From positions 168,822-232,821 of the forward strand of contig VKHL01000031.1 in the NCBI GenBank assembly GCA_015146655.1: 64,000 bases of DNA. Direction: 5' to 3'. Within the stretch, counting starts at the first letter, position 1; each line of letters begins with the position of its first letter. Positions 1-44,280 of the stretch are shown here, piece by piece. A program made the position numbers and the translations under genes. Source of the DNA: Ochromonas danica (lineage: Eukaryota; Sar; Chrysophyceae; Chromulinales; Chromulinaceae). Under the pieces are notes generated by a model, which saw nothing but the letters and a program-made list of their open reading frames with translations, was not told the origin of the DNA and did no database searches.

Positions 1-991
1 GAAGTGATTACAGATACAAACTTACCATGTTTACGGGATAATGCAACGGGTAGACTAGCTCCTGTCTATGGTCGTTCACCACTTATTAATGAATTATGGA
101 TTCCTCTAGTAGAGAAAGCCTTTGCTAAAGCTATGGGTAGTTATGAAGCAATAGCAAGTATTAAAGTTCAAAAGGCATTACTTCATCTTACTGGTGGTAG
201 TGTACAATTACGAAATATACGAGATGAAGTAATGCATATGGATACTATTTCAGATCAATTAGCATGGCAAGAATTTAAACGTAAAGTGAATGGTGATTGT
301 TTAATTTTAATGTATCCACAAGAACGTAAAATTGCTACACCTGCTACTGCTAACTCTACTGGTGGTGGTTTGGGAGGACTAGATGGTCCAAACACTCCTG
401 GAGGAGGTGATGCACTTAGTGTACAAGATAGTAGTACAATGGGTGGTGGTACTGGATCTGTACCTGATAATGGTATGGATCGTCTATCAGAACATTATTT
501 CATACCCAATCGTCTCTATTCTGTTGTAATGTGTCGTGATCATGGTGGATATGAATTAGTCTTAATGCATTGTCCTTGGACAGATCCTGGTTATGTTTGG
601 ACAGGTGAATGGAGTGATATCTCGAATGATTGGGATCTTTATCCGGAGTTATTATATGAATTAGAAAAAGATCCTACAGTCCCATGGAGTCGTAAAACAC
701 CCAATGGTTATTTTTGGATTGCTTTTCGACAATTAATTAAATTCTTTAATAAGACTTATTTATGTCAATTATTTCCACATGATAAATATAATTTTTATTG
801 TGTACGTGGTGATTGTCGTGGACAAAGTGCAGGTGGACCATTAAATACAATTCATGATCGTGAAGAAGTGATGAAAGCTGCTACAGCATCGAAAACACAA
901 GCTATTCTAAAGGTATTCATTATTCTATTATTATCATCGTCATCATAGCTTTGGTCTTTCCTTTGTATTCATTCTATTGCTATCGTTGTCT

Positions 992-2805: not shown

Positions 2806-2840
<35 letters not shown>
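2803..2840 (+). repeat. (GAT)n microsatellite
   Basis: A run of GAT triplets downstream of the calpain-like stop codon. Its right edge merges directly into the duplicated block that starts near 2838, so the repeat sits at a rearrangement junction. Confidence 0.9.
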
Positions 2841-2842
<2 letters not shown>

Positions 2843-3126
2843 ATCTCTAGTAGTCTACACAACAGACTTAGTGTCTCTTTAGACAATAAGGAGTCAGCAT
2901 GTACTGTAGACTAATCAATAATGCTACACTACACAGCAGTGATGACAAACAAGAAGAGAATCATGCTAAGTTGCTAGGAAGTAAGCCATTCTAGCACATA
3001 GTAGAGAAGGATCATAAGGAAGCACTCCTTTGACATAACTGCGAGGCAAAGAGACAACTAGTTCTTCTAGCATGACACGAAGATCAATTAGATCTTCTTC
3101 GTCATCATCCTCATCCTCATCCTCCG
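2838..3126 (-). repeat. Duplicated 3' end of the 5007-7007 gene
   Basis: This block repeats 4894-5160 almost base for base. It carries the final coding stretch (ending in the residues ARMAYFLAT) and about 110 bp of downstream sequence of the neighbouring minus-strand gene. A roughly 20-bp indel near 2925 separates the copies. The intact gene continues upstream from 5160, so that copy is the likely source and this one is a truncated duplicate. It has no start or promoter of its own. Confidence 0.9.
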
Positions 3127-4729: not shown

Positions 4730-4893
4730 CGTGGTTGTGTTTTGCCGCATTTCGTGGTGAGAATTGATTGGTCTGACGACTTATCATGTGTCGAGAATAG
4801 ATGAATAGCTCGCTTAGTTATCCTATAGTTAGAAACATTGAGGTAAGGTTGGATTGGATGGACTGGACTTTGCCGGCAATCGTTGACCTATCT
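4730..4893 (+). repeat. Copy of ArfGAP gene promoter and first exon
   Basis: This segment is nearly identical to the reverse complement of 16830-17000, which holds the upstream region, first exon (16925-16884), donor site and start of intron 1 of the AGFG-type gene. The copied exon still reads MNSSLSYPIVRNIE followed by gtaagg, but no other exon follows. Instead the sequence runs straight into the 3' flank of the 5007-7007 gene at a shared gatgat. It is a dispersed duplication that carries a start codon and splice donor. Confidence 0.9.
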
Positions 4894-5006
4894 TGTGATG
4901 ATTATCTCTAGTAGTCTACACAACAGACTTAATGTCTCTTTAGACAATAAGGAGTCAGCATGTACTGTAGGCTAATCAATAATGCACAAACAAGAAGAGA
5001 ATCATG

Positions 5007-7007
5007 CTAAGTTGCTAGGAAGTAAGCCATTCTAGCACATAGTAGAGAAGGATCATAAGGAAGCACTCCTTTGACATAACTGCGAGGCAAAGAGACAACT
5101 AGTTCTTCTAGCATGACACGAAGATCAATTAGATCTTCTTCTTCATCATCATCATCCTCCGCGTTATCCAAGTAGTCTTCATTATTCTCTCCTTGATCAT
5201 CATCACTTGACTCTCCATCTGAAACATCCTCTTTCTCCTCTTCTTCTTCCTCTTCCTCTTCCTCGTTGTTGCTGTTGTTACTACTATTACTGCCGTCTTC
5301 ATTCATCTTGGTAGCATTCCATTCATAGGGATGTACATGCCAGATCTGATGTACAAGCTCTTTTCCCTGTTCCTCCTCTCCCTTCTCTTCTTCCTCTACA
5401 AGACTATCTTCACTCCAAATGATCACATGACTTCTACTGCTATTTACACCACAGCCATCAAGACCATCTGATGAAGAAGCCGTTATGTTAGTGTTAGTGT
5501 TAGTGTTAGTAGAGGATAGAAAGAAAGGTCGATATCGAGAATAGATAGACTTAGAAGCTATGACAGTAGACCAATGACAATGCTTGGTAAAGGACAGAAG
5601 ATATTCCAGGAAGACTGTCTCAGGGGAGACGAGCAAGTCTATGACTACTTCATGATCACTTTTCAATCCAGCTGCTATTGTCAAGGAGAATGACATCTCC
5701 GGTGAGAGATGTTGAGAGAGAAGGCATTCTTTGATGTCTTGGCAGACAGTTAAGAGACTTGATGGACAGTGAATATTGGTTGTAATACGATGTAGTCGAA
5801 GGTGAAGGTTGAGTAAGTGTAAGAGAGTGTTGATGATGTCACTGTCATTGTCGACTAACACTGGTAAGACCTTCATCCATTCTCTCGCTGCTAAGATAGT
5901 CATCATTCTCTTCAAGATATCAACCATTAACAATAGACAAGAATCACCATCATCATTTTCATCATTTTCATCATTTCCCTGTATCATCAACAGTAGCAAC
6001 CATTTGCATGTCTCATTCATTGTCAATAGAACAAACATTAACATCATACCATCTCTCTGTGCTGTTGTAATCTCTCCACTAAGAAAGAACAACTTCGCTG
6101 TAGTTCTAGTAGTAGAAGAAGGTGTAGGAAGTGTATAGAAGACATCCAAAGCCGAGGCTAGTAGTTGTAAAGTAGATGCAACCTGACCAAAACAATCTTT
6201 CCTGCTCTGACTAAGAACCAGTCCATCCTCTCCAGCAGATGATGATGAGGTCATGTTTATTATAGTGTGACAAGCAGTTAACATTGTCTCTAAGACATCA
6301 AGATAGGCTTTCATAGCAATAGGACGTACTAGTATTGTATTGTCATTATCTCTTAATAGAGACAAGGTGGTAAAAGCATGTACATATTCTTGTAGCACAG
6401 ATCTAACACTACTACTAGTATTAGCAGTACTACTACCAGCAGTACTATTAGTAGCAGTATTAGCAGTACTAGTAGAAGGAGGGGAAGTGTTGAGATAATA
6501 GAGTAACACACTTCGACAAAGATCATAGAAGCTATAACTAAGAGAAGAAGAAAGGAGAAGACGACTACTGCTAGTTGTTGTTGTTGTTGTGCTAGTAGTA
6601 GTTGTATTGTTGTTATTGTTATTTTCTAGTTTTTGTATGTTTTGTATTTTTTGTTGAAAATTTCTGAAGAGACGAGGGAAAGTGAAGGTTGACCATGATT
6701 GAAGAAGAAGAACATCCTCCGAGACTTGCTCATCATATACTACTTCATCATCTTCTTCTTCTTCATCTTCTTCTCTCTTGTCATTCTCTGGGCAGCAAAT
6801 GTGATGGGCAGAAGAAGAAAGAGAAGTCCTCTTATGTTGTTTTTGTTGTTTTTGTTGTTTTTGTTGTTTCTTCTGCTTTTCGTCACGAGGTCGTTTACCT
6901 ATCTGTCTTTCTGGACAACTTCTATCTGGTTTAGATCGATTCACAACATCTAAGAGGTGATAGATCTCTCTATATAAAGCTTCTATTTCTTCCTCATCAT
7001 TTCCCAT
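5007..7007 (-). CDS. Hypothetical acidic, low-complexity protein
   Basis: A single-exon frame of 666 residues starts at an ATG at 7007. I do not recognise the family. The N-terminal quarter is hydrophilic, with Lys/Gln and Glu/Asp runs, then Asn and Thr/Ser runs. The middle (about residues 150-500) is Leu-rich and looks helical, possibly a HEAT/ARM-type solenoid. A long Asp/Glu tract follows near residue 590, then a short conserved-looking tail, LPRSYVKGVLPYDPSLLCAR. The 3' end is duplicated at 2838-3126. It is transcribed in the same direction as MCM2, whose stop lies 250 bp upstream of this start. Acidic tracts would fit a nuclear protein, but that is a guess. Confidence 0.72.
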   Translation of the reverse strand: MGNDEEEIEALYREIYHLLDVVNRSKPDRSCPERQIGKRPRDEKQKKQQKQQKQQKQHKRTSLSSSAHHICCPENDKREEDEEEEDDEVVYDEQVSEDVLLLQSWSTFTFPRLFRNFQQKIQNIQKLENNNNNNTTTTSTTTTTTSSSRLLLSSSLSYSFYDLCRSVLLYYLNTSPPSTSTANTATNSTAGSSTANTSSSVRSVLQEYVHAFTTLSLLRDNDNTILVRPIAMKAYLDVLETMLTACHTIINMTSSSSAGEDGLVLSQSRKDCFGQVASTLQLLASALDVFYTLPTPSSTTRTTAKLFFLSGEITTAQRDGMMLMFVLLTMNETCKWLLLLMIQGNDENDENDDGDSCLLLMVDILKRMMTILAAREWMKVLPVLVDNDSDIINTLLHLLNLHLRLHRITTNIHCPSSLLTVCQDIKECLLSQHLSPEMSFSLTIAAGLKSDHEVVIDLLVSPETVFLEYLLSFTKHCHWSTVIASKSIYSRYRPFFLSSTNTNTNTNITASSSDGLDGCGVNSSRSHVIIWSEDSLVEEEEKGEEEQGKELVHQIWHVHPYEWNATKMNEDGSNSSNNSNNEEEEEEEEEEKEDVSDGESSDDDQGENNEDYLDNAEDDDDEEEDLIDLRVMLEELVVSLPRSYVKGVLPYDPSLLCARMAYFLAT

Positions 7008-7256: not shown

Positions 7257-11458
<4,202 letters not shown>

Positions 11459-11850
11459 CTTATTCACTACCTTCTATTAGTGTGAAAGACACAAGGTGTT
11501 ATTCTTTAATAAAAGTCGCAAACTCTCAATTGACTAATTCGTGATTGATTTATTTCATTTCATCAATTCCTCTTAAGTTAAAGACTCAAATATTCAAACC
11601 TGATTTCAGTAATTTCGTGTTCTCGTCTGCACTTTACCGGAACTTCGAGCCTTTTTGATAAACGCGTTAGTTTGTTTGTGCGGGGTGATTATTGTTCCTG
11701 CCCACCCCGTTACCCTCTGCTGCTGGTTTTTGTTTTGCATTCTCACTTCAATTGTTCCGAGGGAATCAGTTTACCTGACAGGCAGCGGATACTAGGAGAC
11801 TTCTCATTGATCTAACCACCATAGATTTGGCAAAGATAGACTAAATAAGA
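11459..11850. promoter_or_regulatory. Divergent MCM2 / malate dehydrogenase intergenic region
   Basis: These 392 bp separate two start codons pointing away from each other, so both promoters must lie here. I see no clear TATA box or repeated motif. Confidence 0.5.
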
Positions 11851-12879
11851 ATGAAGATCAAGACTGTGGTCATTACTGGTGGTGCTGGACGAATTGCTTA
11901 TTCTCTCATTCCGTTGATTCTCTCTGGTCAGGTTTTTGGCCCTGAGAATAGAATTAATCTTCACTTGTTAGATATTCCTGCTGCTCAAGATCGTTTGAAA
12001 GGAGTTGAGATGGAAGTGGAAGACTGTGGCTATTCACTGTTGAATCGTCTGCTGGCCACAACTAATCCGGATGAAGCCTTCCAAGGTGCAGAGGTTGTAG
12101 TTCTTCTAGGAGGCTGCCCTCGACAGCCCGGCATGGAACGGAAAGACTTGTTACTAGCCAATGCAGAAGCTATTCGTTCCCAGGTGGAATCTCTCAATCG
12201 CCATGGGGGCAGCCACACCAAGGTAGTGGTCGTGACCAATCCAGCCAACTCCAGCTGCCTTGTGGCTATTAAAGCAGCTCCTAATATTCCACCACAGAAC
12301 TTTACCTGTCTTACTCGCTTAGACCAAGAGAGGTTGCGAGTAAAGTGTGCGGCTCATCTGTCGAAGAGTCGTGGGGTGCGAGTGGATAAGAATGAGATAC
12401 ACGATGTGCGTATATGGGGTAATCACAGCACCACCATGGTGGTTGATGTAGATGATGCAAAATGCGTACCAGCCGATGGTAGTCCAACTTTCCCTGTAGG
12501 GCAGTTCGTCGACGATGCGAGCTATGGGAACCTTCTAAAAGAAGTGCAAGACCGTGGCTATGAAATTATCAAGTATTTACAGGTTACGAGTGCTATGAGT
12601 GCCGCTGAATCCATCGTAAAGCATTTACGCGACTGGTTAGGTCCGTCTCAATCAGGCAGTACCTCTGCAGAGCCATTCTGCATGGGAGTTCTGAGCACTG
12701 GAAACAGTTATGGTGTACCTGATGACTTGGTCTTTAGCTTTCCGTGTGAGCGAAGTGATGATGCATCAGGCTATCGAATTGTACGAGGTCTACAGATTTC
12801 CACTCGAACTAGACAGTTGCTGGACCTCACTGCCGAGGAATTGGTGGATGAACGAAGCAAAGTTGCAACTTATTTGTGA
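11851..12879 (+). CDS. MDH1: Malate dehydrogenase, cytosolic-type
   Basis: Single exon of 342 residues, the usual length for NAD-dependent malate dehydrogenase, which interconverts malate and oxaloacetate. The Rossmann start TGGAGRIAYSLIPLI (residues 10-24) has the cytosolic-type IAYSL pattern. The mobile substrate loop is CPRQPGMERKDLL (about 91-103), the substrate Arg lies in LTRLDQER (about 154), and the catalytic His in IWGNHSTT (about 190). No targeting extension is visible, which fits a cytosolic enzyme. Small departures from the family consensus, such as TGGAGR for TGAAGQ and RLDQE for RLDHN, do not touch catalytic residues. It is divergent from MCM2. Confidence 0.95.
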   Translation: MKIKTVVITGGAGRIAYSLIPLILSGQVFGPENRINLHLLDIPAAQDRLKGVEMEVEDCGYSLLNRLLATTNPDEAFQGAEVVVLLGGCPRQPGMERKDLLLANAEAIRSQVESLNRHGGSHTKVVVVTNPANSSCLVAIKAAPNIPPQNFTCLTRLDQERLRVKCAAHLSKSRGVRVDKNEIHDVRIWGNHSTTMVVDVDDAKCVPADGSPTFPVGQFVDDASYGNLLKEVQDRGYEIIKYLQVTSAMSAAESIVKHLRDWLGPSQSGSTSAEPFCMGVLSTGNSYGVPDDLVFSFPCERSDDASGYRIVRGLQISTRTRQLLDLTAEELVDERSKVATYL

Positions 12880-13209
12880 GTGGAGTTTTTAAAGAAAATG
12901 CTGATTTACTTTGATGATATATATGTCTTTGTTAAAATCAAATGCTGCCAAATAGTGCTTTCTTTATTAATATAATATAATGACATCTCAGCATGGTTAA
13001 TATTGTATAGTGTAATGTAATGTGAAGGTACCTAATTTTTAATATATGTTTGGCCTTCTGGCTGTCTGGTTGTCTGGCTGGTTGGCACCGATAGAGGTGG
13101 ATGGGGATTGATTTATTCTCATCAACCTTTCCTCTTGATTGGTCTTGTCAATCTGCTTTCTCTCATTTTCTTCTTGGTGATAAATAACAAATCAAATCAT
13201 TTCTGAAAG
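12880..13209. other. Intergenic region, MDH to DMAP1
   Basis: AT-rich 330 bp holding the 3' end of MDH and the promoter of DMAP1. A short imperfect repeat of ctggctgtctggttg lies near 13060-13085. No gene was seen. Confidence 0.6.
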
Positions 13210-15289
13210 ATGTCTGATGTTGCTGATATGCTTGGTCTAACGACTACCAAGCAAGTCAATAATAACAATAGCAATAATGTCGTAACAGATATTCTCACTT
13301 CCTCTCAACCCCTTACCACTTCTACCACTGCTACTGCTGCTACCCTTGCCAATAGTAATAAGAAGAAGAAACCTAAAGGTATGAAACGAGAAGTCTTTGA
13401 TCTGCTAGGACCAGATGGTTTATTACCTGCAACACAATTACCTCAAGTTTTACCACCTACTTTCAAAAATAAACGAATCACAATCTTAAAAGGCAAATGG
13501 TCTTATGAAGTCATACATAACTCTGCTAGAAAAGATAGTAATAATGTATCTTTTTATCATTGGGTAAAAACAGAAATGAATTGTTTTGATTATCCTTATG
13601 CTAAATTTAATTTACATCTTGATCGTCCATATTATACAGAAGAAGAATATCATCAATATCTAGAAGATCAAACATGGACAAAGGAAGAAACAGAGGAATT
13701 AATTGATCTCTGTATTCAATATGATTTACGATGGCCTGTCATCTATGATCAATATCCTTCCAATATGACAACAAGTCAACGATCTATTGAAGAGTTAATG
13801 GCAAGGTATTATTTTATTGCACAACGTTGTAAACAAATGCGCAACAACAACAATATTGTTAGTAATGCTAATACTAATACCAACAGCAACAATAGTGATA
13901 ACAACAATACAGTCAATAACAACAATAACAGCAATGGGGTCAATAGTACTAATACTGCTGCCAATCCCAATAACAACCCCCCTGCTGCTGCTACTGCTGC
14001 TGCTACTGCTGCTGCTACTGCTGCTGCTACTACTACTGGTACTGTTCCTCCTGCTACTGCTACTGCTGCTGCTCCTCGATCCAATGGGATGGAAGATAAT
14101 AATCCTTATGCTTCGTTTGATCTTGAGAAAGAGAAGAAAAGAAGGTTTATACAAGATCAGCTATTCAAACGAACACGTGAAGATGAAATCGAAGAAATGG
14201 CTATTAAGGAGGAGTTGAAATCCATTGAAGCTATGATAAAGAAAAGCAAGAAACAGGTTAGAGAGAATGCCCTATGTCTATGTCTTATATGAGTGATTTA
14301 ATTTTTGTTTCTGTTGTACACGCAGGTCAAGTCTACTCCAACAGCTTCCTCTTCCTCGGTAGTGACTCCGCATGTAGCATCTGGTGGAGATTGGCATTCC
14401 TATTCTGCTGCTCTCACAGACTCTCGTGGCTTGCTTACTGCAACAACAACAAGCCCTGTCGCAGAATTATACCAAGGACCGCAACCTGGAAGACCATGTT
14501 TGCAGAGCTCTCGTCTCTATCTGACATCTAATCTCAACCTTTCCAAGAGCTTGATTGGCAAGATGAACTCTTATCTCAAGGAGATTGGAATGCCTGAAAG
14601 ACCGCTTGCCACTAAGACTGTGTGTGATCTGATTGATGGAATTCGTAAAGACACAGTGGCACTCATGTCTCTCACCTCCCTCACCGTGAAGAAAGAGAAA
14701 GATCTGGGATCTGCTAAAACAAACTCTGCCAAGAGCACTGCTAAGGCTTCACAAAAATCATCCAAGGCCAAGGCTTCGAAGCCAAAGACCCCAGCCAATA
14801 ATACTAATGCGGGAGCTGATGCGGCAGATAGTGCTGCGGGCAATGCAAAGGGAAATAGTGACAATGCTAAAGCTGTGCCAAATGATTCGAATCTTGTGGG
14901 TTTACTTGATGTCTTTGATTCCAATGTCCCGCTCGAGGTTGAAGTGAAACCTGCCAAACCAGCTCCAAAGAAGGTAATAGTCATGTACTTCATGCTCGTG
15001 TGTTTGTGTTGATAGTGTTTAATTTCTGATACTATAGAGATCGCGCGCCAAGAAAGACACAAATGCTGCAGCTGCAGCTGCTGCCGCCGCTGCAAGTGCT
15101 GCAACTGTTTCGACAGAACCTCTTCCTCTCGGGGGGATTGAACATGTTCCAACAGTAGATACTGCTAACCTTGAGGCAAAATTCGATCTGGATGCATCTG
15201 GCGCCATGTCAGTCTTCGATGACATCTCCGTGTTGGACGATTTCGATCTCTCTCCTGCTCAGCCAACACCGAAGAAGAGTCGTCGCTAA
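13210..15289 (+). CDS. DMAP1: DMAP1/SWC4-like chromatin protein
   Basis: Three exons (13210-14256, 14326-14973, 15038-15289) join to 648 residues. The protein matches DMAP1/SWC4/EAF2, a shared subunit of the NuA4 acetyltransferase and SWR1 remodeller that deposit H4 acetylation and H2A.Z. Visible family blocks, in order: MSDVADMLGL at the start, PKGMKREVFDLL (about residue 57), an NSARKDSNNVSFYHWVK stretch (about 108), DYPYAKFN, and a SANT-type segment YTEEEYHQYLEDQTWTKEET (about 143-162) ending in MARYYFIAQR. Long Asn, Ala/Thr and Pro runs (about residues 210-290) separate this from a conserved C-terminal region. Lys/Ala-rich and poly-Ala tracts follow. The basic tail ends KKSRR. It converges with the ArfGAP gene. 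Confidence 0.92.
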
Positions 15290-15407
15290 TCCAATTAACA
15301 GAGTGAATACAAGCATTTAGGTAGTCAGTTCTTTGTGCACTATTTAGTAACATTACAACTACAAAGTCTAAAGCATAGCGTTTACCAAGCGGTATTAGAC
15401 GATTACT

Positions 15408-16925
15408 TTATGAAGTTAGGAAATCAGGTTGGTCACAAGAGGAGAGGATTAACAGATCCGGGGTGTGGGAAATTGATGGTTGTATATGCTGTGGTGTGGA
15501 TGAAGCATAAATGGCAGGTTGGGAAAGGTTCACTGCGAAAGACTGACCAGTATTTTGGACAGTTGCTGTGACAGGCGATAACGGCAGAGACGAGGACGAT
15601 ATTGAAGAAGAGGGAGAAGTGATTGTGCTTCGTCTGGCGGGACCAAGAAGGATGGGCCTCAACACAGTTGGATCAGGAATTTCCACTACGTCTGATAAAC
15701 CCTCTTCTCCTTCAACGCTGCCAGGTGATTCCACCACCAAAGCAGCAGGAGCGTTAGGATAAGGGTGCCTTCTGAGAAAGTTACTCGAAACGCGGGCCGC
15801 TCTGCGAGCAGTGGGATCAGATCCGACAGCATAAGCATAGACGGTTTCCAAAGAGTCGTCCACAACAGCGTCAACTGCTGGGATAGGAAGGGGGGCCTCG
15901 CTGTAAAACGGTATAGGTTCAACGCGGACAGAAGGTGCTGTTAAATTGACAGCCACTTCGCTGTCATGTAAGGGAACAGCTATAACAGGTGTGGGAGGAG
16001 AGTCGTCCATTTGGACAGAAGGCGAAGTTGGTACAGAAGTCGACACAGTGATGTGTCGAGTTGACTGTGTTGATAGAATGGCGTCAGGCGAAAAGCTAAC
16101 CACAGAAGGAGCAAGCCTTCCACCACTTGTGGGTTGAGAAAAGGAAGGAGGCGGCCGGAGTGGGGCTTTCTGTAAGACTGGAATGGAGGCTGGAACTGGA
16201 GCTGGAGCGAGCACTGGAGCTGGAGAAGGAGCTAAGAAAGGGAGTGGAGGAGGAATTTGAGGCCTGGGAGGTGGTATGGACGAGGACACGCGTGACTGTA
16301 TTGGGGAAAATGGCGGTATCCGATACCACCTTCTTTCCACATACTTCAACCTCACAAATTCGCGGAGAAGGTCTTTGCTTAGTCGAATCAAAGAAAATCG
16401 ATTCATATCATCGACAGTAATCTCAGCCATGAAGATACGATTGCTGGCTTTGTTACCAGTCCCAGCCACGGCGTCAAGCTCAGCCACATCAAAACGAACC
16501 AAAGGCTGGATAGATTTTATTCGAAATCCAAATTCACGACTGAAGTACGCACAATAAGATACATAGAATAGAGAATAGATATAGAGAATCTTACTGGATT
16601 GTAGAACAGGTGGAACAGAGAAGAATACTATGAGTCAGATCCACGAAAGCTGGATTCTTCAACAAAACAAAATAAAATAGTAGACTGTTACGAGAAAGCC
16701 TGTGTTGAACAGAGAGAGAGAGAGAGAGAATTACGGGTGGGTCTTACAGGTTTGCCACAATCAGCACATCGATCATTGTCTTCTAGATTGAGCAAGGAGA
16801 GAATGGTCACCTCCTACTCGAATATCATCACAAGATAGGTCAAGGATTGCCGGCAACGTCCAGTCCATCCAATCCAACCTTACCTCAACATTTCTAACTA
16901 TAGGATAGCTAAGCGAGCTATTCAT
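15408..16925 (-). CDS. AGFG-type ArfGAP domain protein
   Basis: Four exons (16925-16884, 16813-16748, 16656-16595, 16539-15408) join in frame to 433 residues. The N-terminal 125 residues form an ArfGAP domain that stimulates GTP hydrolysis on Arf GTPases. The zinc finger is CADC...CSTC (about residues 30-53), followed by IHREFGFRIKSI and ending LKYVERRWY, which is closest to the AGFG/HRB branch (VKSI...EKYEKKRWY). The Arg after the zinc finger, normally in IHR, is present. The rest is Pro/Ser-rich and probably disordered, without the FG repeats of animal AGFG. The first exon codes only 14 residues and was chosen because its phase-0 donor fits; it and the promoter are duplicated at 4730-4893. 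Divergent from epsin. Confidence 0.85.
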
Positions 16926-17450
16926 CTATTCTCAGACACATGATAAGTCGTCAGACCAATCAATTCTCACCACGAAATGCGGCAAAATAACACAACCACT
17001 TCAATAGATACACAGTAGAACAGTCTAGCTGGTCCAAAACTCTGGGAGGCAGAAAAACGGGTGTTTTTCTCCAAGAATCTTCTTGGCCAAGTGGAGGGTT
17101 GTGGTTAACTTGTCATAGGGTCCAGACTCTGGGAGCGCTAGGCAGACACACACACACAGTCCGGCAGTGCAACAACGAAGCACAGCTCACTGTGAGCAGC
17201 ACGAGACAAACAACAACAGAGAAGCAGATCTCATCAAGTCTTTGCTATTATTCTCTAATAGATCCACTATCAACAAGGATAGTGAATTGATTACTAACGT
17301 GGTTTTCTTTCTATCCTTGTGTTAGTTATCTCTTACTATTCTTTCTTATTCTCTCTTTCTCTTTTCTCTCTTGATCTTTCGAATAAGTTCATTCTTGGAA
17401 TTCCTCAATTGATCTTTGGAAAGGAATTGACCACAAAAAAAACGGAAAAA
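16926..17450. promoter_or_regulatory. Divergent ArfGAP / epsin intergenic region
   Basis: 525 bp between two opposite start codons. The first 75 bp belong to the segment duplicated at 4730-4893. A pyrimidine-rich stretch (17319-17370) precedes the epsin ATG at 17451. Short open frames here have no coding sign. Confidence 0.5.
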
Positions 17451-31923: not shown

Positions 31924-32153
31924 TCTTTCTCTTCTCTTCTCCCCTCTTTTCTTGATCACCTTTCTCTTCCATCTTGCACTGATTCTCAATTTATACTGTA
32001 GCCTCTTTATCTTTTTGCAGAGAAGCGAAATTCAATCAGAAAGATAGAATACAATTTTTAAAATAGAAGGTAGTTCACCCTCTCATAATTGGTGTTGGCA
32101 TAGAGCAATAAAGAGCTAGATTAAATTGAAGAAGAGTTGTTTTTAAGACATCA

Positions 32154-35100
32154 ATGTTGAATGATGGTATATTTCCCAGCAACTCTATTTCTCCCCCCTC
32201 GGAAGCGGTTATTTCCAACCTTTGTGAGGTGTTGATGGCACCCTCCCAGGTACACCATCAGCCGTGGCACAATGATCAACATTTAGCACAACGAACTGAG
32301 ATGTGTAAGACAATAGCAACTATACTTAATTCGAAAACGTCTTTGGCTGATGATAAAGCACTTAGCATTGCCAAACTGATCGAAGTGAAACTCTACAGCT
32401 GTGCGACATCTTTGGAAGAGTGAGTTCGTTGGTAGTGAAACTAAAATTCTATAACTTATTTGATGTTTGAATGTGATAGGTATCAAGATCGTGATTCTTT
32501 AAGCACCAGAGTGAAGCACTTGGTTGTGGAGCTTTTACGGGAAGCAAAACGTATTCAGTCAAATGGGACAAACAAGGAAAAGCCTGAAAGTGCTCCAATC
32601 GATCTCACAAATGACCGATCTTCTTCAGCCAATCAACCCAAGCCACAATTAAGTCAACGCTGTTCCAGGGCTTTCATCGTCGAAATGCTGGATCGGCTGC
32701 TAACGAATTCCTTCAAGAAGCCTCATGTGAATGTGCAAGGGAGCAAAGATGGTATTTTCCAATGGCTTGTAGAGGTACGATCAGAGTTAGCTAGTCTACG
32801 CGCTGACAATGATGGTGTTTTGCCACAAGACGAACTGTACGGTGGAGTTAGCTTTAATGAAACTGATCCGTCAACTTACTGGACAGACGAAAGTCAGTTC
32901 GCTACTTGGTGGAAGAACAATGTGGTTAAGAGAAGCAAATATGAGCAGATGCTGGAACAAGCCAAATATAACGGAGGGAGTCTCCGAAAAGAACATAAGT
33001 AAGAATTCTGCTGTAGCAATTTCTCTGTTGAGCTTATAGCCATGTTGTCATGGAATAGTGCGGCATTCTACACAGCGGTGATTGAACGGGTGGAGAATAT
33101 TCGAAGAGAATCATTGAAGCTCATGGGGAGTAATCAGGGAGCGGGTAATCAGGAAGCCAGTTTAGCGACAAACCATGAAAATGGAGCCTCGGCCTCTTCA
33201 CGCGATGTTTATTACAACAACTTTGTATTGCTTCTTTTCCGTTTACTTTCTGATGATAAAACAAGCTGTGTTCGCTGGGAGGACACTGTGAGAACCTCTT
33301 CCAGTTCTAGGGAGTCAACTTCGATCGGCTATGATTCTTTTGTGATTGATTCAAATGAGTTTGCTACAACTGCAATGAAGCATTATTTCTCAAGTAAGAA
33401 AGCTTTGATACTTGACCCACTCATGTCAAGTAAATGCCTCATGATGGTTTTTCATAGATTTAAATTTGGAAAGTTTTGAGCGGCAGTTGGAGATACATGG
33501 ATTTACTGTGGACCACGTAAATGGGAAAATACGCGGTTTCCACACCCATCTAAAGAGAGGAGATCAAAGTTCAGCGGATGCATTACAAGCTCTGTACAGA
33601 AAGCAACATCGAGCTCCTCAAAGTGGCCCCAGAGTAAGTCAAACAGCTTTATACGCCCTCCAACTTCAGCGGATGTTGCGAGAACAATTAGGCACCGAAC
33701 AAAAGCAGCAGTTAGAGCAATTAGAATCTTTGCCTGCATCTTCATCTTCTACCGGTATCTCTCCTCCTTCTACAAGTGCGGCTATGCTTCCACCATCTCT
33801 CCCTTCACTTGCTGGCGCTATCAATGCTAGCACGGTTTCTGGTAATGCAGCTCCTGCTGGCCGAACACTTCTTGGCACCTCTTCTGGTAATGCAGCTCCT
33901 GCTGGTCGAACACTTCTTGGCGGAGCACTTCCTGCTACCGCTTCTGGTACTGCGATTGGTAATACTTCGCTTTTTGGTACTACTCGTAGTACTACTCTTC
34001 CACGTGTTGACACCGCCATTCCTGGTACCGCACTTTCTAGTGCCACGCTTCTTGGCAATGCACTTGCTGGCGCTGTTCCTGGTTCTAACCTTCCTGGTAC
34101 AGCTGCAAGTTCGGTGCCATCCACTTCGCTGTTTCAACCAACTCTACCCATGAATCCTCTTCCTCTTTCGATGCTTGCACAATGTTCTCAGATGAATTCG
34201 GTGCCTAACTTGGCATCATTACCATCGTTTAGCGGTCTAAGTAACGAGGCTGGTCCCTTTCATTCAAGTGGTCGGAATACCGCATACTGTCCACCACTGT
34301 CCTCCTTTTCTTCTATACTGCCCAATGCTCCGCAACCTTCTTTGCTGGGAGGTGTTTCTGGTAACCCGTTTCCTCTGCTGAATCCGGCAGGGAATCCTTG
34401 GACTGATAACTCGTTGTTCGGTATGAATGCTTTTCCCTACCAATCCCCGTTGCCTACAGCAAACAATCAAGCTCTTCTCTTGATGCAGAACTTGATGCAA
34501 AGTCAGTTGTCTGATCCATTGACTATGGTCATGATGCAGACCATGCAAGCTTGCCTAACAAGTGTGAGCCAGCAAATCAATCAGGCGCTCCATCCATTCC
34601 TAGCCCCTTATATTCTCTCTACAACGCCTTCTTCCTCTGTTTATCCTGGCTTCACGGCAACGGGATATCCCAGTCAGTTTCATGTGTATCCAACTCAACT
34701 GGAGGCACAAACAGAGGCAGTTCCTTCTGCCGCCCCTAAGCAAGTAGCGAAGGAGGCTGAAATGGAAAATGAGAAGAAAGAAGCAGAAATGACCGAAGTC
34801 GGCAAAGCTGAGGAGCGCAGACAAGCCTCTAAGAGGCGCCGCAATCGAAATTCCTTCCCTTCTTCTCCTATTATCACCGCTCCTCCCTTGGCCATCGTCA
34901 ATGAAGATGATATTTATGCCAAGCCTTACAAGACTTCTCGTAGGCGACGCTCTGCTGATGATGCCGCAGTAGTAAGTTCTGCGAATCAGGATGAAGTGTA
35001 TCAGAGTAAGTTATGGAGAAGCACTCGCAAAAGAAAGAATGGCAGAAGTGGTCGCGACAGTGCACCTCTTCATGCACTCATTCCCTCAAATCCTGGCGGA

Positions 35101-37390
35101 AGCGATGATGAATCGGTCAATAGCGACGATAGCTCTTCAATTGCATCTCTAGACGAAAAAGCAACCATCGCAAGCAATGCCGACGTTAACGCACGACAAG
35201 TCGTAGATGCAGTTGTTGAAAGTATGTCTTTATATCCTTGCGACATGCTCGATCTGTCTCAGCCTCGTGCGCGTCGTGTCTATGTTGATTTGACTATGGA
35301 CGTACCCTTGAATGATGATGTGAATGCCAGACGTGCACGTAAAGTGTTCCATGGCAAGCTCGTGGCTTTTCGTGGTGATCTTCCTGCACCTTCAACCAAT
35401 ATCGAGCCGCAACAAGCTTCCGCAAAGGCTAGTCGTGAGCACAAAACTAGTCGCTACAATAGTGACTATGCACGTCATAGCAGTCGCATAGGGGAGAATT
35501 ATCAGGCAACTCTACCGTCACTCCAATTGATGCCCCATTGGACTCGAAGGGAACTCGACCGTTCGAGAGAAAGTCTTGTTTGGGATTCCACTATGCACCA
35601 AGAAGACTATCTTTGTCGACAGTTGCAGAAAATTCGCAATGGGGCTCGAAGTATCATGAGAGAATCCATCCAACCAGGCAACATGTATATTCTCAAGTTC
35701 AGCTCCTTTAATCCAGAGAGTAGCAACAGATCTTTAACTCGCCCGAAGTATAGCTTATGTGTTGTCCTCGAGGTTGGTGTATCTGCTCCTGATGGCGAGA
35801 ACAGTGAGAATGAAGCTGGTAGTGGACAAGAGGATGAGGATGATGACGATGCCTCGAATGTGTGGATTAAGATTTATGATGGGGAAGAGGTGAGTTTCTC
35901 TTTTAACTATGAAGACTGTCTGTCCTTGCTTCATTTTATTGTTGTGCTTGTAAACTCAATAGGAAATTGATGTGCATTCAAATCAATTACTGCCCATTTA
36001 CGGTTTGACTGAGGACTACCTATTACCTGCATTGCATGATAAGAATCTCCGTTCCAGTTTGGCGGAATACTATGATGGCATTTTTCATCGAATTTATAAT
36101 TATTCTTCGATTGATGTTGATGACGACGACGAAGAGGCTCCTCGTTGGACATCACGAGAAGCTCGTCTCTTTTCCACAGCCATCAAACGTCACAGTGATA
36201 ATGTTGCCAAAGTGTGGCGTCTTTGCTTTGCAACAACTCGATCTCTAAAGCAGGTGTTAGATTTCTACTATCGCATTTACTGCACATATCTGGCCGCAGC
36301 TCCTCGCAAAGTCTTTCGTGTGTTCTCAACTGCCGATCAATTGGTTGAAGAAAGCCGTAAAGCTATTCTTGAACGCGAAGAACTGGAAATAAATATGACG
36401 AAAGAAGGTATCAAAGAGAGTGATAATGACAGTGAGTCACTGGTAAGCCATTCAGAGGTCATCGAAGAAGAGGATGTGGAAGAAGAAGAAGAAGAAGAAG
36501 AAGTGGAAGATGAAGATGTCGTTGAAGAGGACGTCATTGATAAAGCAGAAAGGGAAGATGAAGCTTCCACCAAGGAATCTGATAAGAGTGAAGAGGGCGA
36601 TGAGGATGGAAATGATGAAGAGGGTGACGACGAAGAGGATGCTAAACATGTTCCTGAAGTTACTCGAGATAGCGACGAGGAGGGAGTTGCTATGATAAAG
36701 AAGAAAAGAAGAAAGAAAGGCCGTGTTCGTCTGACACTTGTTCGTCACCGCAACCAAAAGACTGCAAAGCGCCGTGACTCCAGTGCGGAGGAGGTCTTAG
36801 TGGCACCCAAAAGAAATGACAATCGACCAGCAAATAGCAGAAAAGCCTCTGTGAGAGATTCGGAGGAGTTGGTAGAAACTGTTCCCGTGAAGAGACGAAG
36901 AGTATCCGCTCCTGCAGCCATTTCAATTGACAGCAAATCCGGTGATCCTGAAATGAGCCTTGTTAGCGATGGTGAGGTGAATATTGGCGATTCTTCTGTC
37001 CGCCGCGGCAATGTTCGTCGCAAGAGTCTAGCAGACATTATCAACGCTACTCGTGATTCCGATCCTGCTTCCAAGTATACTATACGTTTGGATGATGGGC
37101 ATTATGGATACTTGTCCATCGCTCCCCAGGTTGTTCCTCGCAACGGCTTGAAGTTATGTTTCTGTGAGAAGCCAGCAAACCGTCATGAGCGATATTTAAA
37201 ATGCACATTGGGGATAAAATGCCATGGATTTTGTCATTTATCTTGTCTCAATCTGTCCCATGCGAGCGATTTCAAGCTGCGCACGCAATATATGAACTAT
37301 ATCTGCCCTCCTTGTCATTCTTTTACTAATGAGTCTGAAGAAGAAGAGACCAGAGTGACAAGAAGTCAAATTAAAAGTAAAGCTCGCTAG
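32154..37390 (+). CDS. KIX-HSF-SANT-PHD chromatin/transcription regulator, copy 1
   Basis: Five exons: 32154-32419, 32480 to 32979 or 32998, 33040 or 33017 to 33393, 33458-35889, 35963-37390; about 1,660 residues. Domains in order: a KIX-like helix bundle (about 45-105), typical of coactivator surfaces; an HSF-type DNA-binding domain split over exons 3-4 (about 310-430) ending YFSSNLNLESFERQLEIHGF, matching the heat-shock-factor wing-helix pattern; a long Ser/Pro/Gly-rich region with two GNAAPAGRTLLG units; basic patches (KRRRNR); a folded segment near 1125-1245 that might be BAH-like; a SANT-like domain (about 1255-1305, WTSREARLF...VWRLCF); a long acidic and basic stretch; and a PHD finger (CFCEKP...CHGFCHLSCLNL...CPPC, about 1596-1650). 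Probably a nuclear DNA-binding chromatin regulator. The junction between exons 2 and 3 is ambiguous. Confidence 0.82.
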
Positions 37391-37909
37391 GGATCGCTTT
37401 TGAGCAAACCATTCATATTGTTCTATTAATTCACTTCTTCACTTTGTTGTGGTCTTCGGGAATAACAACAACTGTGAGATGTTCACGATTATCATTTCAA
37501 AACAGCGGGAACAGATGTTGTATGATGTCTCGTTGTGATGTCGATAGATTGAGGTGTAGGTTTTGTTTTGTTCTGTGTACTTCTGAGTATCTCCTTCAGT
37601 TACTAGGTGTACCCACCACCCAAAGTTTCCATGGTGTGAAATGCGAAGGGATTAATTTTGTATCATGGCTTGGTATTGGTTTTCTTGTGATGATTGGATG
37701 ATATTCCTTTAAAGAGGGTGTTGTTGGTTTAATAATTCACCATGAAGCTCCTTGTTTCACCACCCACTCTCTCTCTCTATATGACACACCGTTATAGTAG
37801 TTGTAGTGTAACAGTAGTTTGTAGATGAGAATTGTGACTTTGAAAGAATGTATGCTAACACAATTGAATTCAATATTACGCGATTTCCTATTATAATGTA
37901 CCAGAGACT
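37391..37909. other. 3' flank of tandem copy 1
   Basis: This 519-bp stretch follows the stop codon and belongs to the duplicated unit (same as 43762-44280). A CTCTCTCTCTA run lies near 37770. No further gene was recognised. Confidence 0.6.
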
Positions 37910-38094
37910 GTACTGAATGTTTTCGTTATCTATATCTTTTTAACACAGAGAATGTTGAATTCAGGCAAAACAACTCCCCATTTCCGGCGTCAGCGGACAA
38001 TATTACAGATCTATTCCATTGGTTGCAAAGTGATTATTTCATTTCAAAACCAGATTACTAGATTGTTAGGAATCCTAGTAAAAGTTCTCGATGG

Positions 38095-38149
<55 letters not shown>

Positions 38150-38294
38150 CAATTGCGGAATGCGTGGTGCTCGGCGCACTGCCGAGTGCGTGCGTGTTCT
38201 GTGTTGGCAACCGTTGAGCCGGTAGAAGAAGAAATCGCATCCTTTCTCTTTCCTCAACACTCCCTTCTGACTTCATTCATTTGCTTTATCCTTT
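37910..38294. promoter_or_regulatory. Diverged spacer/upstream region of tandem copy 2
   Basis: The only non-identical part of the tandem array. It resembles 31614-31923 (shared TTGAATTCA near 37956, the TTTCAAAACCAGATTA stretch, TCGATGGATGTGTG) with many changes and a GT expansion. It keeps the 35-bp block at 38225-38259. It probably holds the copy 2 promoter. Confidence 0.6.
38096..38143 (+). repeat. (GT)n microsatellite upstream of copy 2
   Basis: About 24 GT units followed by GCGCGCGC. Copy 1 has only a short, interrupted GTGTGT stretch here (31769-31783). Confidence 0.95.
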
Positions 38295-41200
38295 TCTTTC
38301 TCTTCTCTTCTCCCCTCTTTTCTTGATCACCTTTCTCTTCCATCTTGCACTGATTCTCAATTTATACTGTAGCCTCTTTATCTTTTTGCAGAGAAGCGAA
38401 ATTCAATCAGAAAGATAGAATACAATTTTTAAAATAGAAGGTAGTTCACCCTCTCATAATTGGTGTTGGCATAGAGCAATAAAGAGCTAGATTAAATTGA
38501 AGAAGAGTTGTTTTTAAGACATCAATGTTGAATGATGGTATATTTCCCAGCAACTCTATTTCTCCCCCCTCGGAAGCGGTTATTTCCAACCTTTGTGAGG
38601 TGTTGATGGCACCCTCCCAGGTACACCATCAGCCGTGGCACAATGATCAACATTTAGCACAACGAACTGAGATGTGTAAGACAATAGCAACTATACTTAA
38701 TTCGAAAACGTCTTTGGCTGATGATAAAGCACTTAGCATTGCCAAACTGATCGAAGTGAAACTCTACAGCTGTGCGACATCTTTGGAAGAGTGAGTTCGT
38801 TGGTAGTGAAACTAAAATTCTATAACTTATTTGATGTTTGAATGTGATAGGTATCAAGATCGTGATTCTTTAAGCACCAGAGTGAAGCACTTGGTTGTGG
38901 AGCTTTTACGGGAAGCAAAACGTATTCAGTCAAATGGGACAAACAAGGAAAAGCCTGAAAGTGCTCCAATCGATCTCACAAATGACCGATCTTCTTCAGC
39001 CAATCAACCCAAGCCACAATTAAGTCAACGCTGTTCCAGGGCTTTCATCGTCGAAATGCTGGATCGGCTGCTAACGAATTCCTTCAAGAAGCCTCATGTG
39101 AATGTGCAAGGGAGCAAAGATGGTATTTTCCAATGGCTTGTAGAGGTACGATCAGAGTTAGCTAGTCTACGCGCTGACAATGATGGTGTTTTGCCACAAG
39201 ACGAACTGTACGGTGGAGTTAGCTTTAATGAAACTGATCCGTCAACTTACTGGACAGACGAAAGTCAGTTCGCTACTTGGTGGAAGAACAATGTGGTTAA
39301 GAGAAGCAAATATGAGCAGATGCTGGAACAAGCCAAATATAACGGAGGGAGTCTCCGAAAAGAACATAAGTAAGAATTCTGCTGTAGCAATTTCTCTGTT
39401 GAGCTTATAGCCATGTTGTCATGGAATAGTGCGGCATTCTACACAGCGGTGATTGAACGGGTGGAGAATATTCGAAGAGAATCATTGAAGCTCATGGGGA
39501 GTAATCAGGGAGCGGGTAATCAGGAAGCCAGTTTAGCGACAAACCATGAAAATGGAGCCTCGGCCTCTTCACGCGATGTTTATTACAACAACTTTGTATT
39601 GCTTCTTTTCCGTTTACTTTCTGATGATAAAACAAGCTGTGTTCGCTGGGAGGACACTGTGAGAACCTCTTCCAGTTCTAGGGAGTCAACTTCGATCGGC
39701 TATGATTCTTTTGTGATTGATTCAAATGAGTTTGCTACAACTGCAATGAAGCATTATTTCTCAAGTAAGAAAGCTTTGATACTTGACCCACTCATGTCAA
39801 GTAAATGCCTCATGATGGTTTTTCATAGATTTAAATTTGGAAAGTTTTGAGCGGCAGTTGGAGATACATGGATTTACTGTGGACCACGTAAATGGGAAAA
39901 TACGCGGTTTCCACACCCATCTAAAGAGAGGAGATCAAAGTTCAGCGGATGCATTACAAGCTCTGTACAGAAAGCAACATCGAGCTCCTCAAAGTGGCCC
40001 CAGAGTAAGTCAAACAGCTTTATACGCCCTCCAACTTCAGCGGATGTTGCGAGAACAATTAGGCACCGAACAAAAGCAGCAGTTAGAGCAATTAGAATCT
40101 TTGCCTGCATCTTCATCTTCTACCGGTATCTCTCCTCCTTCTACAAGTGCGGCTATGCTTCCACCATCTCTCCCTTCACTTGCTGGCGCTATCAATGCTA
40201 GCACGGTTTCTGGTAATGCAGCTCCTGCTGGCCGAACACTTCTTGGCACCTCTTCTGGTAATGCAGCTCCTGCTGGTCGAACACTTCTTGGCGGAGCACT
40301 TCCTGCTACCGCTTCTGGTACTGCGATTGGTAATACTTCGCTTTTTGGTACTACTCGTAGTACTACTCTTCCACGTGTTGACACCGCCATTCCTGGTACC
40401 GCACTTTCTAGTGCCACGCTTCTTGGCAATGCACTTGCTGGCGCTGTTCCTGGTTCTAACCTTCCTGGTACAGCTGCAAGTTCGGTGCCATCCACTTCGC
40501 TGTTTCAACCAACTCTACCCATGAATCCTCTTCCTCTTTCGATGCTTGCACAATGTTCTCAGATGAATTCGGTGCCTAACTTGGCATCATTACCATCGTT
40601 TAGCGGTCTAAGTAACGAGGCTGGTCCCTTTCATTCAAGTGGTCGGAATACCGCATACTGTCCACCACTGTCCTCCTTTTCTTCTATACTGCCCAATGCT
40701 CCGCAACCTTCTTTGCTGGGAGGTGTTTCTGGTAACCCGTTTCCTCTGCTGAATCCGGCAGGGAATCCTTGGACTGATAACTCGTTGTTCGGTATGAATG
40801 CTTTTCCCTACCAATCCCCGTTGCCTACAGCAAACAATCAAGCTCTTCTCTTGATGCAGAACTTGATGCAAAGTCAGTTGTCTGATCCATTGACTATGGT
40901 CATGATGCAGACCATGCAAGCTTGCCTAACAAGTGTGAGCCAGCAAATCAATCAGGCGCTCCATCCATTCCTAGCCCCTTATATTCTCTCTACAACGCCT
41001 TCTTCCTCTGTTTATCCTGGCTTCACGGCAACGGGATATCCCAGTCAGTTTCATGTGTATCCAACTCAACTGGAGGCACAAACAGAGGCAGTTCCTTCTG
41101 CCGCCCCTAAGCAAGTAGCGAAGGAGGCTGAAATGGAAAATGAGAAGAAAGAAGCAGAAATGACCGAAGTCGGCAAAGCTGAGGAGCGCAGACAAGCCTC

Positions 41201-44200
41201 TAAGAGGCGCCGCAATCGAAATTCCTTCCCTTCTTCTCCTATTATCACCGCTCCTCCCTTGGCCATCGTCAATGAAGATGATATTTATGCCAAGCCTTAC
41301 AAGACTTCTCGTAGGCGACGCTCTGCTGATGATGCCGCAGTAGTAAGTTCTGCGAATCAGGATGAAGTGTATCAGAGTAAGTTATGGAGAAGCACTCGCA
41401 AAAGAAAGAATGGCAGAAGTGGTCGCGACAGTGCACCTCTTCATGCACTCATTCCCTCAAATCCTGGCGGAAGCGATGATGAATCGGTCAATAGCGACGA
41501 TAGCTCTTCAATTGCATCTCTAGACGAAAAAGCAACCATCGCAAGCAATGCCGACGTTAACGCACGACAAGTCGTAGATGCAGTTGTTGAAAGTATGTCT
41601 TTATATCCTTGCGACATGCTCGATCTGTCTCAGCCTCGTGCGCGTCGTGTCTATGTTGATTTGACTATGGACGTACCCTTGAATGATGATGTGAATGCCA
41701 GACGTGCACGTAAAGTGTTCCATGGCAAGCTCGTGGCTTTTCGTGGTGATCTTCCTGCACCTTCAACCAATATCGAGCCGCAACAAGCTTCCGCAAAGGC
41801 TAGTCGTGAGCACAAAACTAGTCGCTACAATAGTGACTATGCACGTCATAGCAGTCGCATAGGGGAGAATTATCAGGCAACTCTACCGTCACTCCAATTG
41901 ATGCCCCATTGGACTCGAAGGGAACTCGACCGTTCGAGAGAAAGTCTTGTTTGGGATTCCACTATGCACCAAGAAGACTATCTTTGTCGACAGTTGCAGA
42001 AAATTCGCAATGGGGCTCGAAGTATCATGAGAGAATCCATCCAACCAGGCAACATGTATATTCTCAAGTTCAGCTCCTTTAATCCAGAGAGTAGCAACAG
42101 ATCTTTAACTCGCCCGAAGTATAGCTTATGTGTTGTCCTCGAGGTTGGTGTATCTGCTCCTGATGGCGAGAACAGTGAGAATGAAGCTGGTAGTGGACAA
42201 GAGGATGAGGATGATGACGATGCCTCGAATGTGTGGATTAAGATTTATGATGGGGAAGAGGTGAGTTTCTCTTTTAACTATGAAGACTGTCTGTCCTTGC
42301 TTCATTTTATTGTTGTGCTTGTAAACTCAATAGGAAATTGATGTGCATTCAAATCAATTACTGCCCATTTACGGTTTGACTGAGGACTACCTATTACCTG
42401 CATTGCATGATAAGAATCTCCGTTCCAGTTTGGCGGAATACTATGATGGCATTTTTCATCGAATTTATAATTATTCTTCGATTGATGTTGATGACGACGA
42501 CGAAGAGGCTCCTCGTTGGACATCACGAGAAGCTCGTCTCTTTTCCACAGCCATCAAACGTCACAGTGATAATGTTGCCAAAGTGTGGCGTCTTTGCTTT
42601 GCAACAACTCGATCTCTAAAGCAGGTGTTAGATTTCTACTATCGCATTTACTGCACATATCTGGCCGCAGCTCCTCGCAAAGTCTTTCGTGTGTTCTCAA
42701 CTGCCGATCAATTGGTTGAAGAAAGCCGTAAAGCTATTCTTGAACGCGAAGAACTGGAAATAAATATGACGAAAGAAGGTATCAAAGAGAGTGATAATGA
42801 CAGTGAGTCACTGGTAAGCCATTCAGAGGTCATCGAAGAAGAGGATGTGGAAGAAGAAGAAGAAGAAGAAGAAGTGGAAGATGAAGATGTCGTTGAAGAG
42901 GACGTCATTGATAAAGCAGAAAGGGAAGATGAAGCTTCCACCAAGGAATCTGATAAGAGTGAAGAGGGCGATGAGGATGGAAATGATGAAGAGGGTGACG
43001 ACGAAGAGGATGCTAAACATGTTCCTGAAGTTACTCGAGATAGCGACGAGGAGGGAGTTGCTATGATAAAGAAGAAAAGAAGAAAGAAAGGCCGTGTTCG
43101 TCTGACACTTGTTCGTCACCGCAACCAAAAGACTGCAAAGCGCCGTGACTCCAGTGCGGAGGAGGTCTTAGTGGCACCCAAAAGAAATGACAATCGACCA
43201 GCAAATAGCAGAAAAGCCTCTGTGAGAGATTCGGAGGAGTTGGTAGAAACTGTTCCCGTGAAGAGACGAAGAGTATCCGCTCCTGCAGCCATTTCAATTG
43301 ACAGCAAATCCGGTGATCCTGAAATGAGCCTTGTTAGCGATGGTGAGGTGAATATTGGCGATTCTTCTGTCCGCCGCGGCAATGTTCGTCGCAAGAGTCT
43401 AGCAGACATTATCAACGCTACTCGTGATTCCGATCCTGCTTCCAAGTATACTATACGTTTGGATGATGGGCATTATGGATACTTGTCCATCGCTCCCCAG
43501 GTTGTTCCTCGCAACGGCTTGAAGTTATGTTTCTGTGAGAAGCCAGCAAACCGTCATGAGCGATATTTAAAATGCACATTGGGGATAAAATGCCATGGAT
43601 TTTGTCATTTATCTTGTCTCAATCTGTCCCATGCGAGCGATTTCAAGCTGCGCACGCAATATATGAACTATATCTGCCCTCCTTGTCATTCTTTTACTAA
43701 TGAGTCTGAAGAAGAAGAGACCAGAGTGACAAGAAGTCAAATTAAAAGTAAAGCTCGCTAGGGATCGCTTTTGAGCAAACCATTCATATTGTTCTATTAA
43801 TTCACTTCTTCACTTTGTTGTGGTCTTCGGGAATAACAACAACTGTGAGATGTTCACGATTATCATTTCAAAACAGCGGGAACAGATGTTGTATGATGTC
43901 TCGTTGTGATGTCGATAGATTGAGGTGTAGGTTTTGTTTTGTTCTGTGTACTTCTGAGTATCTCCTTCAGTTACTAGGTGTACCCACCACCCAAAGTTTC
44001 CATGGTGTGAAATGCGAAGGGATTAATTTTGTATCATGGCTTGGTATTGGTTTTCTTGTGATGATTGGATGATATTCCTTTAAAGAGGGTGTTGTTGGTT
44101 TAATAATTCACCATGAAGCTCCTTGTTTCACCACCCACTCTCTCTCTCTATATGACACACCGTTATAGTAGTTGTAGTGTAACAGTAGTTTGTAGATGAG

Positions 44201-44280
44201 AATTGTGACTTTGAAAGAATGTATGCTAACACAATTGAATTCAATATTACGCGATTTCCTATTATAATGTACCAGAGACT
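38295..44280 (+). repeat. Tandem duplication, copy 2 (about 5,986 bp)
   Basis: Second unit, identical to 31924-37909 wherever compared. The right boundary is at accagagact, after which the two flanks are unrelated. Confidence 0.95.
38525..43761 (+). CDS. KIX-HSF-SANT-PHD chromatin/transcription regulator, copy 2
   Basis: Exons are at copy 1 positions plus 6,371: 38525-38790, 38851 to 39350 or 39369, 39411 or 39388 to 39764, 39829-42260 and 42334-43761. The predicted protein is identical to copy 1 in every domain, and the introns are identical as well. Only the upstream region differs, so any difference between copies should be in expression. The frame-breaking TAA at 39371-39373 must be spliced out, as in copy 1. 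No frameshift or stop marks it as a pseudogene. Confidence 0.82.

Follow-up and report, generated by a model that had tools for sequence, protein, structure and literature searches.

What kind of regulator joins a heat shock factor (HSF)-type DNA-binding domain to chromatin modules in a single chain, and how many genes encode it, are the questions raised by a locus of the alga Ochromonas danica. The window analysed is a stretch of 64,000 nt from contig VKHL01000031.1 (positions 168,822-232,821), and all coordinates are those of the window. An earlier note had treated 32154-43761 as one protein-coding span for a protein with KIX, HSF-type, SANT and PHD domains. Instead, this span was found to hold two copies of one gene, offset by 6371 bp, and the spliced proteins from the two copies (five exons and 1659 amino acids each) are identical. 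The features are collected in Table 1; the stretches between the domains are Ser/Ala/Pro-rich, basic or acidic. We interpret the product as a nuclear, DNA-targeted scaffold for a class I histone deacetylase (HDAC), derived from an HSF-type factor and encoded by two identical tandem copies, a reading for which the sequence gives about as much ground for belief as for reserve.

Table 1. Features of the locus, in window coordinates (CDS, coding sequence)
Feature	Position	Copy 2	Residues	Strand	Basis or remark
Gene copy 1, CDS	32154-37390			+	exons 32154-32419, 32480-32998, 33059-33393, 33458-35889, 35963-37390
Gene copy 2, CDS	38525-43761			+	exons 38525-38790, 38851-39369, 39430-39764, 39829-42260, 42334-43761
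Exact 5,986-bp repeat unit	31924-37909	38295-44280		+	sequence identity
Spacer 5' of copy 2	37910-38294			+	matches upstream flank of copy 1
KIX-like domain	32262-32534	38633-38905	37-107	+	KIX_2 below cut-off; split by intron 1
HSF-type DNA-binding domain	33207-33612	39578-39983	312-425	+	PF00447; split by intron 3
ELM2 region	35482-35667	41853-42038	1049-1110	+	PF01448, motif RIGENYQATL; C-terminal end by eye
SANT	36128-36298	42499-42669	1240-1296	+	Myb/SANT below cut-off; MTA1 top PDB match
Acidic linker	36428-36670		1340-1420	+	37 Glu and 16 Asp in residues 1310-1420
PHD-like C4HC3 finger with short preceding stretch	37070-37321	43441-43692	1554-1637	+	PF00628 below cut-off

Domains of the encoded protein

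The whole protein was searched against Pfam at E up to 10, and domain pieces chosen by eye were also submitted singly. Only three families, HSF, ELM2 and PHD, were found in the whole protein, with HSF alone exceeding its cut-off, and the KIX and Myb/SANT matches appeared solely when the pieces were given alone. The PDB set searched comprised 177,635 sequences, and 2000 shuffles were made for each shuffle test. Because the partners in these tests had been picked beforehand as best matches (MTA1 and DIDO1 in the PDB search, the C10 fingers and the C16 KIX in the genome search), the shuffle results overstate the evidence; for the C16 KIX and the C10 fingers the E-values of the genome search are the fairer measure. 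These comparisons show the HSF-type and KIX-like parts to be homologous to known domains and make the same likely for ELM2, SANT and the PHD-like finger. The domain set proposed in the earlier note was therefore sound in part: the HSF-type domain is clear and the KIX-like domain is homologous to that of the organism's own CBP, but SANT and PHD lay below the cut-offs and ELM2 had been missed.

The HSF-type domain was borne out by PF00447, which matched residues 317-393 of the whole protein (29.4 bits against a cut-off of 22, E 1.2e-6), and by HSF2 and HSF1 chains in the PDB. With E limited to 1, the PDB search gave 18 matches, all but one of them (17) heat shock factors; HSF2 was the top match (E 4.3e-4) and covered the middle of the domain, whose end at about residue 425 was set by eye. 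Compared with an HSF from the same genome, the domain scored 88, whereas shuffled sequences scored 26.6 +/- 5.0 and none of them reached that value. The recognition helix reads SFERQLEIHGF where HSF2 has SFVRQLNMYGF, so that V and N are each replaced by E, while the Arg of SF.RQL, which we take to be a base contact, was kept. Leu/Gln-rich residues 433-478, at the position of the HR-A/B region, gave no Pfam match. The window protein thus shares with heat shock factors (HSF1/HSF2 and algal HSFs) the HSF-type domain with its SF.RQL..(H/Y)GF core, but differs in its diverged recognition helix, in the chromatin modules attached to it and in an HR-A/B region that is not established. A single-frame genome scan for HSF gave nine exon matches on six contigs and did not list the window gene, because its domain is split by an intron. 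For P. tricornutum, 67 HSFs are reported, as part of a diatom expansion (PMC4827209), and with nine exon matches the O. danica genome therefore does not fit that expansion.

The ELM2 profile PF01448 matched residues 1050-1088 with 17.1 bits in the whole protein (E 0.01), under its cut-off of 21.7, but exceeded this cut-off when the stretch was given alone (24.3 bits, E 5.8e-5) and in a six-frame scan of the genome (24.1 bits, E 0.0024). The two gene copies were the sole matches in that scan, which found no other ELM2 in the genome. The ELM2 motif EIRVGxxYQAxI is reported to sit in the groove of the HDAC (PMC4244562). When SSRIGENYQATL was compared with this consensus, R, G, Y, Q and A were kept, V was changed to I and I to L, and the leading E and I were lost; the window motif RIGENYQATL fits the published consensus, which is largely kept.

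The SANT segment, given as a Myb piece, stayed under the Pfam cut-off (E 0.098), but its best PDB match was MTA1 (E 0.16 and 0.19). The score of 67 against MTA1, a partner picked as best match, was reached by none of the 2000 shuffles, and the MTA1 chain 4bkx_A also aligned, though very weakly (1.3 bits), with the ELM2 stretch, the two matches lying in the same order in that chain. The segment, noticed earlier as SANT alone, is thus the second half of a putative ELM2-SANT pair. In MTA1 we take the inositol-phosphate pocket of SANT to be formed by two Lys and two Tyr; inspected by eye, the window protein keeps the Tyr pair, while one Lys is changed to Arg and one to Tyr. A Qua1 (quaking)-like stretch at 36002-36100, between ELM2 and SANT, was considered as a candidate (E 0.49) and dropped; Pfam lists nothing there.

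As a piece, the KIX-like domain gave 14.1 bits with PF16987 (E 0.047), missing the cut-off of 25.6, and it was listed neither in the whole protein nor in a single-frame genome scan with KIX_2. When residues 1-464 were compared with the organism's own genome, the match outside the locus was to a KIX on C16 (E 2.8e-4, 34% identity). The two KIX sequences scored 101, compared with 24.2 +/- 4.3 for shuffled sequences, and again no shuffle reached the observed score. The C16 gene is assigned to CBP/p300 since it carries KIX_2 (27.6 bits in the genome scan, over the cut-off; 23.7 of 25.6 bits in a second search) together with TAZ, bromodomain, PHD and HAT_KAT11. Another KIX candidate, on C101 (19.7 bits), was not similar to the window KIX beyond chance (126 of 2000 shuffles). 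With a two-sequence KIX profile, MED15 or CBP KIX domains accounted for 8 of 13 PDB matches, at E of at least 0.033 and mixed with unrelated chains. The KIX-like fold noticed earlier is therefore homologous to the KIX of the organism's own CBP/p300, although it misses the Pfam cut-off. In addition to the KIX, a PHD-like finger is shared with CBP/p300, whereas the window protein has no Pfam match to TAZ, bromodomain or HAT and carries ELM2-SANT, the kind of module that binds deacetylases, instead.

The PHD-like finger gave 15.1 bits (E 0.025) with PF00628 as a piece and 9.6 bits (E 1.2) in the whole protein, missing the cut-off of 24 and leaving the earlier PHD assignment short of Pfam's threshold, but the eight C4HC3 ligands were placed in order (CFC...KC...KC-HGFCH-LSC...CPPC) from the translation and the DIDO1 alignment, and the genome holds paralogues. 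Two paralogous fingers were found in a 704-amino-acid frame on C10 (E 1.8e-7 and 4.6e-6; 0 of 2000 shuffles each), and a third related finger on C87 (E 5.8e-4). At an E limit of 10 the PDB search gave 12 matches, with DIDO1 best (E 0.0091) and BPTF next; fingers of the DIDO1/BPTF type are thus the best PDB matches, though at E 0.009 to 1.7 only. The C10 frame (L028, 685-2799) carries the PHD-like module twice, with the preceding stretch included, and its Pfam PHD match is likewise below the cut-off.

No relatives of the ELM2-SANT region or of residues 1-425 were found among the viral contigs searched, and none of the ELM2-SANT region among the bacterial and archaeal contigs searched. NCBIfam, which covers bacteria and archaea, gave no match to residues 1-430.

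A candidate deacetylase scaffold

Pairing of ELM2 with SANT is reported to recruit class I HDACs (PMC4244562), and in humans 13 of 15 HDAC1-binding proteins are reported to use this pair (PMC12448893). A histone deacetylase whose best PDB match is HDAC1 (4bkx_B) was found on C39, the genome total being 14 exon-level HDAC-family matches. Over the first four lines of their alignment, 263 of the 408 compared aligned residues are identical. Seven of ten inspected positions were kept in the C39 enzyme (K31, Y48, L161, Y166, R270, R306 and Y336), among which K31 and R306 are presumably residues of the inositol phosphate pocket. R270 is reported to contact the inositol phosphate (PMC4848466), and for the human enzyme Y48, K126, L161/Y166 and Y333/Y336 are reported to be important in binding ELM2-SANT (PMC12448893).

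The order of ELM2 followed by SANT, the R.G..YQA motif and a class I HDAC in the same genome are shared with MTA1-3 (of the nucleosome remodelling and deacetylase complex, NuRD), RCOR, MIER, MIDEAS/TRERF1 and RERE. In the window protein, however, a PHD-like finger follows SANT where MTA has GATA, KIX and HSF-type domains stand in front, and about 130 residues separate ELM2 from SANT. We know of no HSF or KIX part in any of these corepressor families.

From these relationships we infer HDAC recruitment, DNA binding, histone reading and repression. The HSF-type domain would place the protein at specific DNA, ELM2-SANT would bind the HDAC1-type enzyme and activate it together with inositol phosphate, and the PHD finger may anchor or orient the protein on histone tails. 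The KIX domain, known as the coactivator part that binds activation domains (PMC9668993), would bind hydrophobic activator motifs and might either hold the activators or, being of the CBP kind, compete with CBP for them. At its target genes the protein would thus act as a repressor or as a switch between acetylation and deacetylation; the genome encodes both CBP/p300 and the HDAC1-type deacetylase. The sequence thus supports the earlier idea of a chromatin regulator in one piece, with an HSF-type domain among its parts. Its supposed recruitment of coactivators is not the best reading: since KIX is the activator-binding part of a coactivator and SANT is paired with ELM2, a corepressor or a KIX-controlled switch is suggested instead. 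As a bolder and rather doubtful extension, the protein may be the mirror image of CBP/p300, with rival KIX domains switching between acetylation and deacetylation; activators that call an acetyltransferase through KIX would then be captured by a deacetylase scaffold seated on DNA.

Several observations weigh against a DNA-targeted deacetylase scaffold. ELM2 lies below its cut-off in the whole protein, and KIX, SANT and PHD do so even as pieces. AlphaFold models were poor, with a mean predicted local distance difference test score (pLDDT) of 39.5 for exon 5 (35963-37387) and 46.2 for the end of exon 4 (35440-35889). The residues that separate ELM2 from SANT are without assignment, about 190 residues lie between the ELM2 motif and SANT where the MTA1 chain has 116, and the helices of an ELM2 dimer were not identified. 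The last Lys, which follows YYYMW in the SANT of MTA1, is not kept, the window protein reading FYYRIY. The two new acidic residues of the recognition helix could weaken or change DNA binding. On the side of the enzyme, E63, K126 and Y333 are Q, Q and F in the C39 HDAC, and K126E and Y333A/Y336A are reported to disrupt binding in the human HDAC (PMC12448893).

Some of these points would also fit an HSF-type domain that has lost specific DNA binding, which would leave the protein as a general chromatin scaffold or coactivator-type adaptor. We consider such a loss unlikely, though it is the strongest of the alternatives, and we give the same modest weight to its corollary that the HSF-type domain binds proteins instead and that KIX does the targeting. 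The acidic substitutions relative to HSF2, the lack of a clear HR-A/B trimerisation region in residues 433-478 and a Pfam match confined to positions 1-65 of the 100 in the profile agree with a loss of DNA binding, whereas the retained Arg of SF.RQL, taken to be a base contact, and a wing and C-terminal part that can be aligned with an HSF of the same genome argue against such a loss.

It is somewhat less probable that the SANT/ELM2-like segments recruit no HDAC and are a diverged remnant or a Myb-like part that binds DNA or histones. The sub-threshold scores of ELM2 in the whole protein (E 0.01) and of SANT as a piece, an MTA1 match of E 0.16 only with 1.3 bits for its ELM2 part, and the changes at E63, K126 and Y333 in the HDAC partner are what such a protein could give. 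However, the ELM2 motif is kept and precedes a SANT that has hydrophobic residues in helix 3, and the SANT score against MTA1 was not equalled in any shuffle, even if that partner was picked beforehand. The deacetylase scaffold is our preferred reading.

A scaffold of this make-up apparently combines known domains in an undescribed way. The KIX/HSF/ELM2/SANT/PHD combination had no description in the openly licensed literature, among the matches listed, and no literature was found there on KIX or ELM2-SANT in stramenopiles or on KIX with a heat shock factor in oomycetes. Animal HSFs call in separate cofactors. The literature search is in line with the earlier note's view of an undescribed architecture, but fusing an HSF to other domains is not in itself a novelty, because HSF-PAS fusions are reported in haptophytes (PMC4827209). 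The human CBP KIX is reported to bind motifs in HR-A/B of HSF2 (PMC9668993), so relatives of the KIX and HSF domains joined here interact in trans. If the scaffold reading is true, partners that meet in trans in animals could be tested in cis in one chain, and the scaffold would be a case of ELM2-SANT directed to DNA by an HSF domain in the same protein. The locus would also be a place to ask how non-diatom algae with few HSFs wire stress or other responses to chromatin.

Tandem copies and gene model

The repeated block of 5,986 bp is identical base for base in the two copies, in introns as well as exons, and reaches from 230 bp 5' of the start codon to 519 bp 3' of the stop. In the 385-bp spacer 5' of copy 2, positions 22-350 showed 64% identity to the upstream flank of copy 1, and no further matches to the spacer were found elsewhere in the 337-contig genome. 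The upstream regions have diverged while the gene bodies are identical, a pattern that we take to reflect an older tandem pair with gene bodies homogenised by gene conversion. The block with its diverged flanks thus resembles two homogenised gene bodies, each under a promoter of its own.

The same block, free of any difference even in its introns, could be produced by an assembly error, a single gene then existing in the organism. We regard this as improbable and less likely than a tandem pair, since the upstream sequences, at 64% identity, differ more than two haplotypes normally would, and four light-harvesting matches of equal score are also found in tandem on contig C224. The latter lie at 8673-16382, about 2.4 kb apart, and may be a further instance in this genome of tandem copies that are recent or were homogenised.

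In each copy the exons join into 1659 codons without an internal stop, the four introns (60, 60, 64 and 73 bp) are all of the GT...AG type, and stops are met when intron 1 is read through; the five-exon structure of the earlier note was thus correct as sequence, once applied to each copy. The introns cut inside KIX, inside HSF and between ELM2 and SANT, the 2432-bp exon 4 holds the end of HSF together with the ELM2 region, and the last exon, with an open frame of 475 amino acids, holds SANT and PHD. A fusion by the model of two genes, KIX with HSF and ELM2 with SANT and PHD, is very improbable despite a linker rich in Ser, Ala, Leu and Pro (residues 430-900), because with introns so placed the break would fall inside an exon, while one open exon connects HSF with ELM2 and one open frame connects SANT with PHD.

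Other observations in the window and genome

Another chromatin factor in the window is a DMAP1-like gene at 13207-14292 (SANT_DAMP1_like, E 6.4e-26). In the genome, 47 exon-level matches to light-harvesting proteins were counted, one of which had 19 PDB matches including Euglena-like, XLH, VCP and FCP chains; these matches point to a photosynthetic alga. PsaA and PsaB had no match in the assembly. Repeats were also seen in the window. The segment 4018-4320 (about 300 bp) is a centred inverted repeat, 91% identical to its own reverse complement, and resembles elements of the foldback or miniature inverted-repeat transposable element (MITE) type. Positions 4731-4914 and 16814-16999 form an inverted repeat pair with 93.6% identity, and 2835-3118 and 4896-5159 a direct repeat pair with 91.5% identity.

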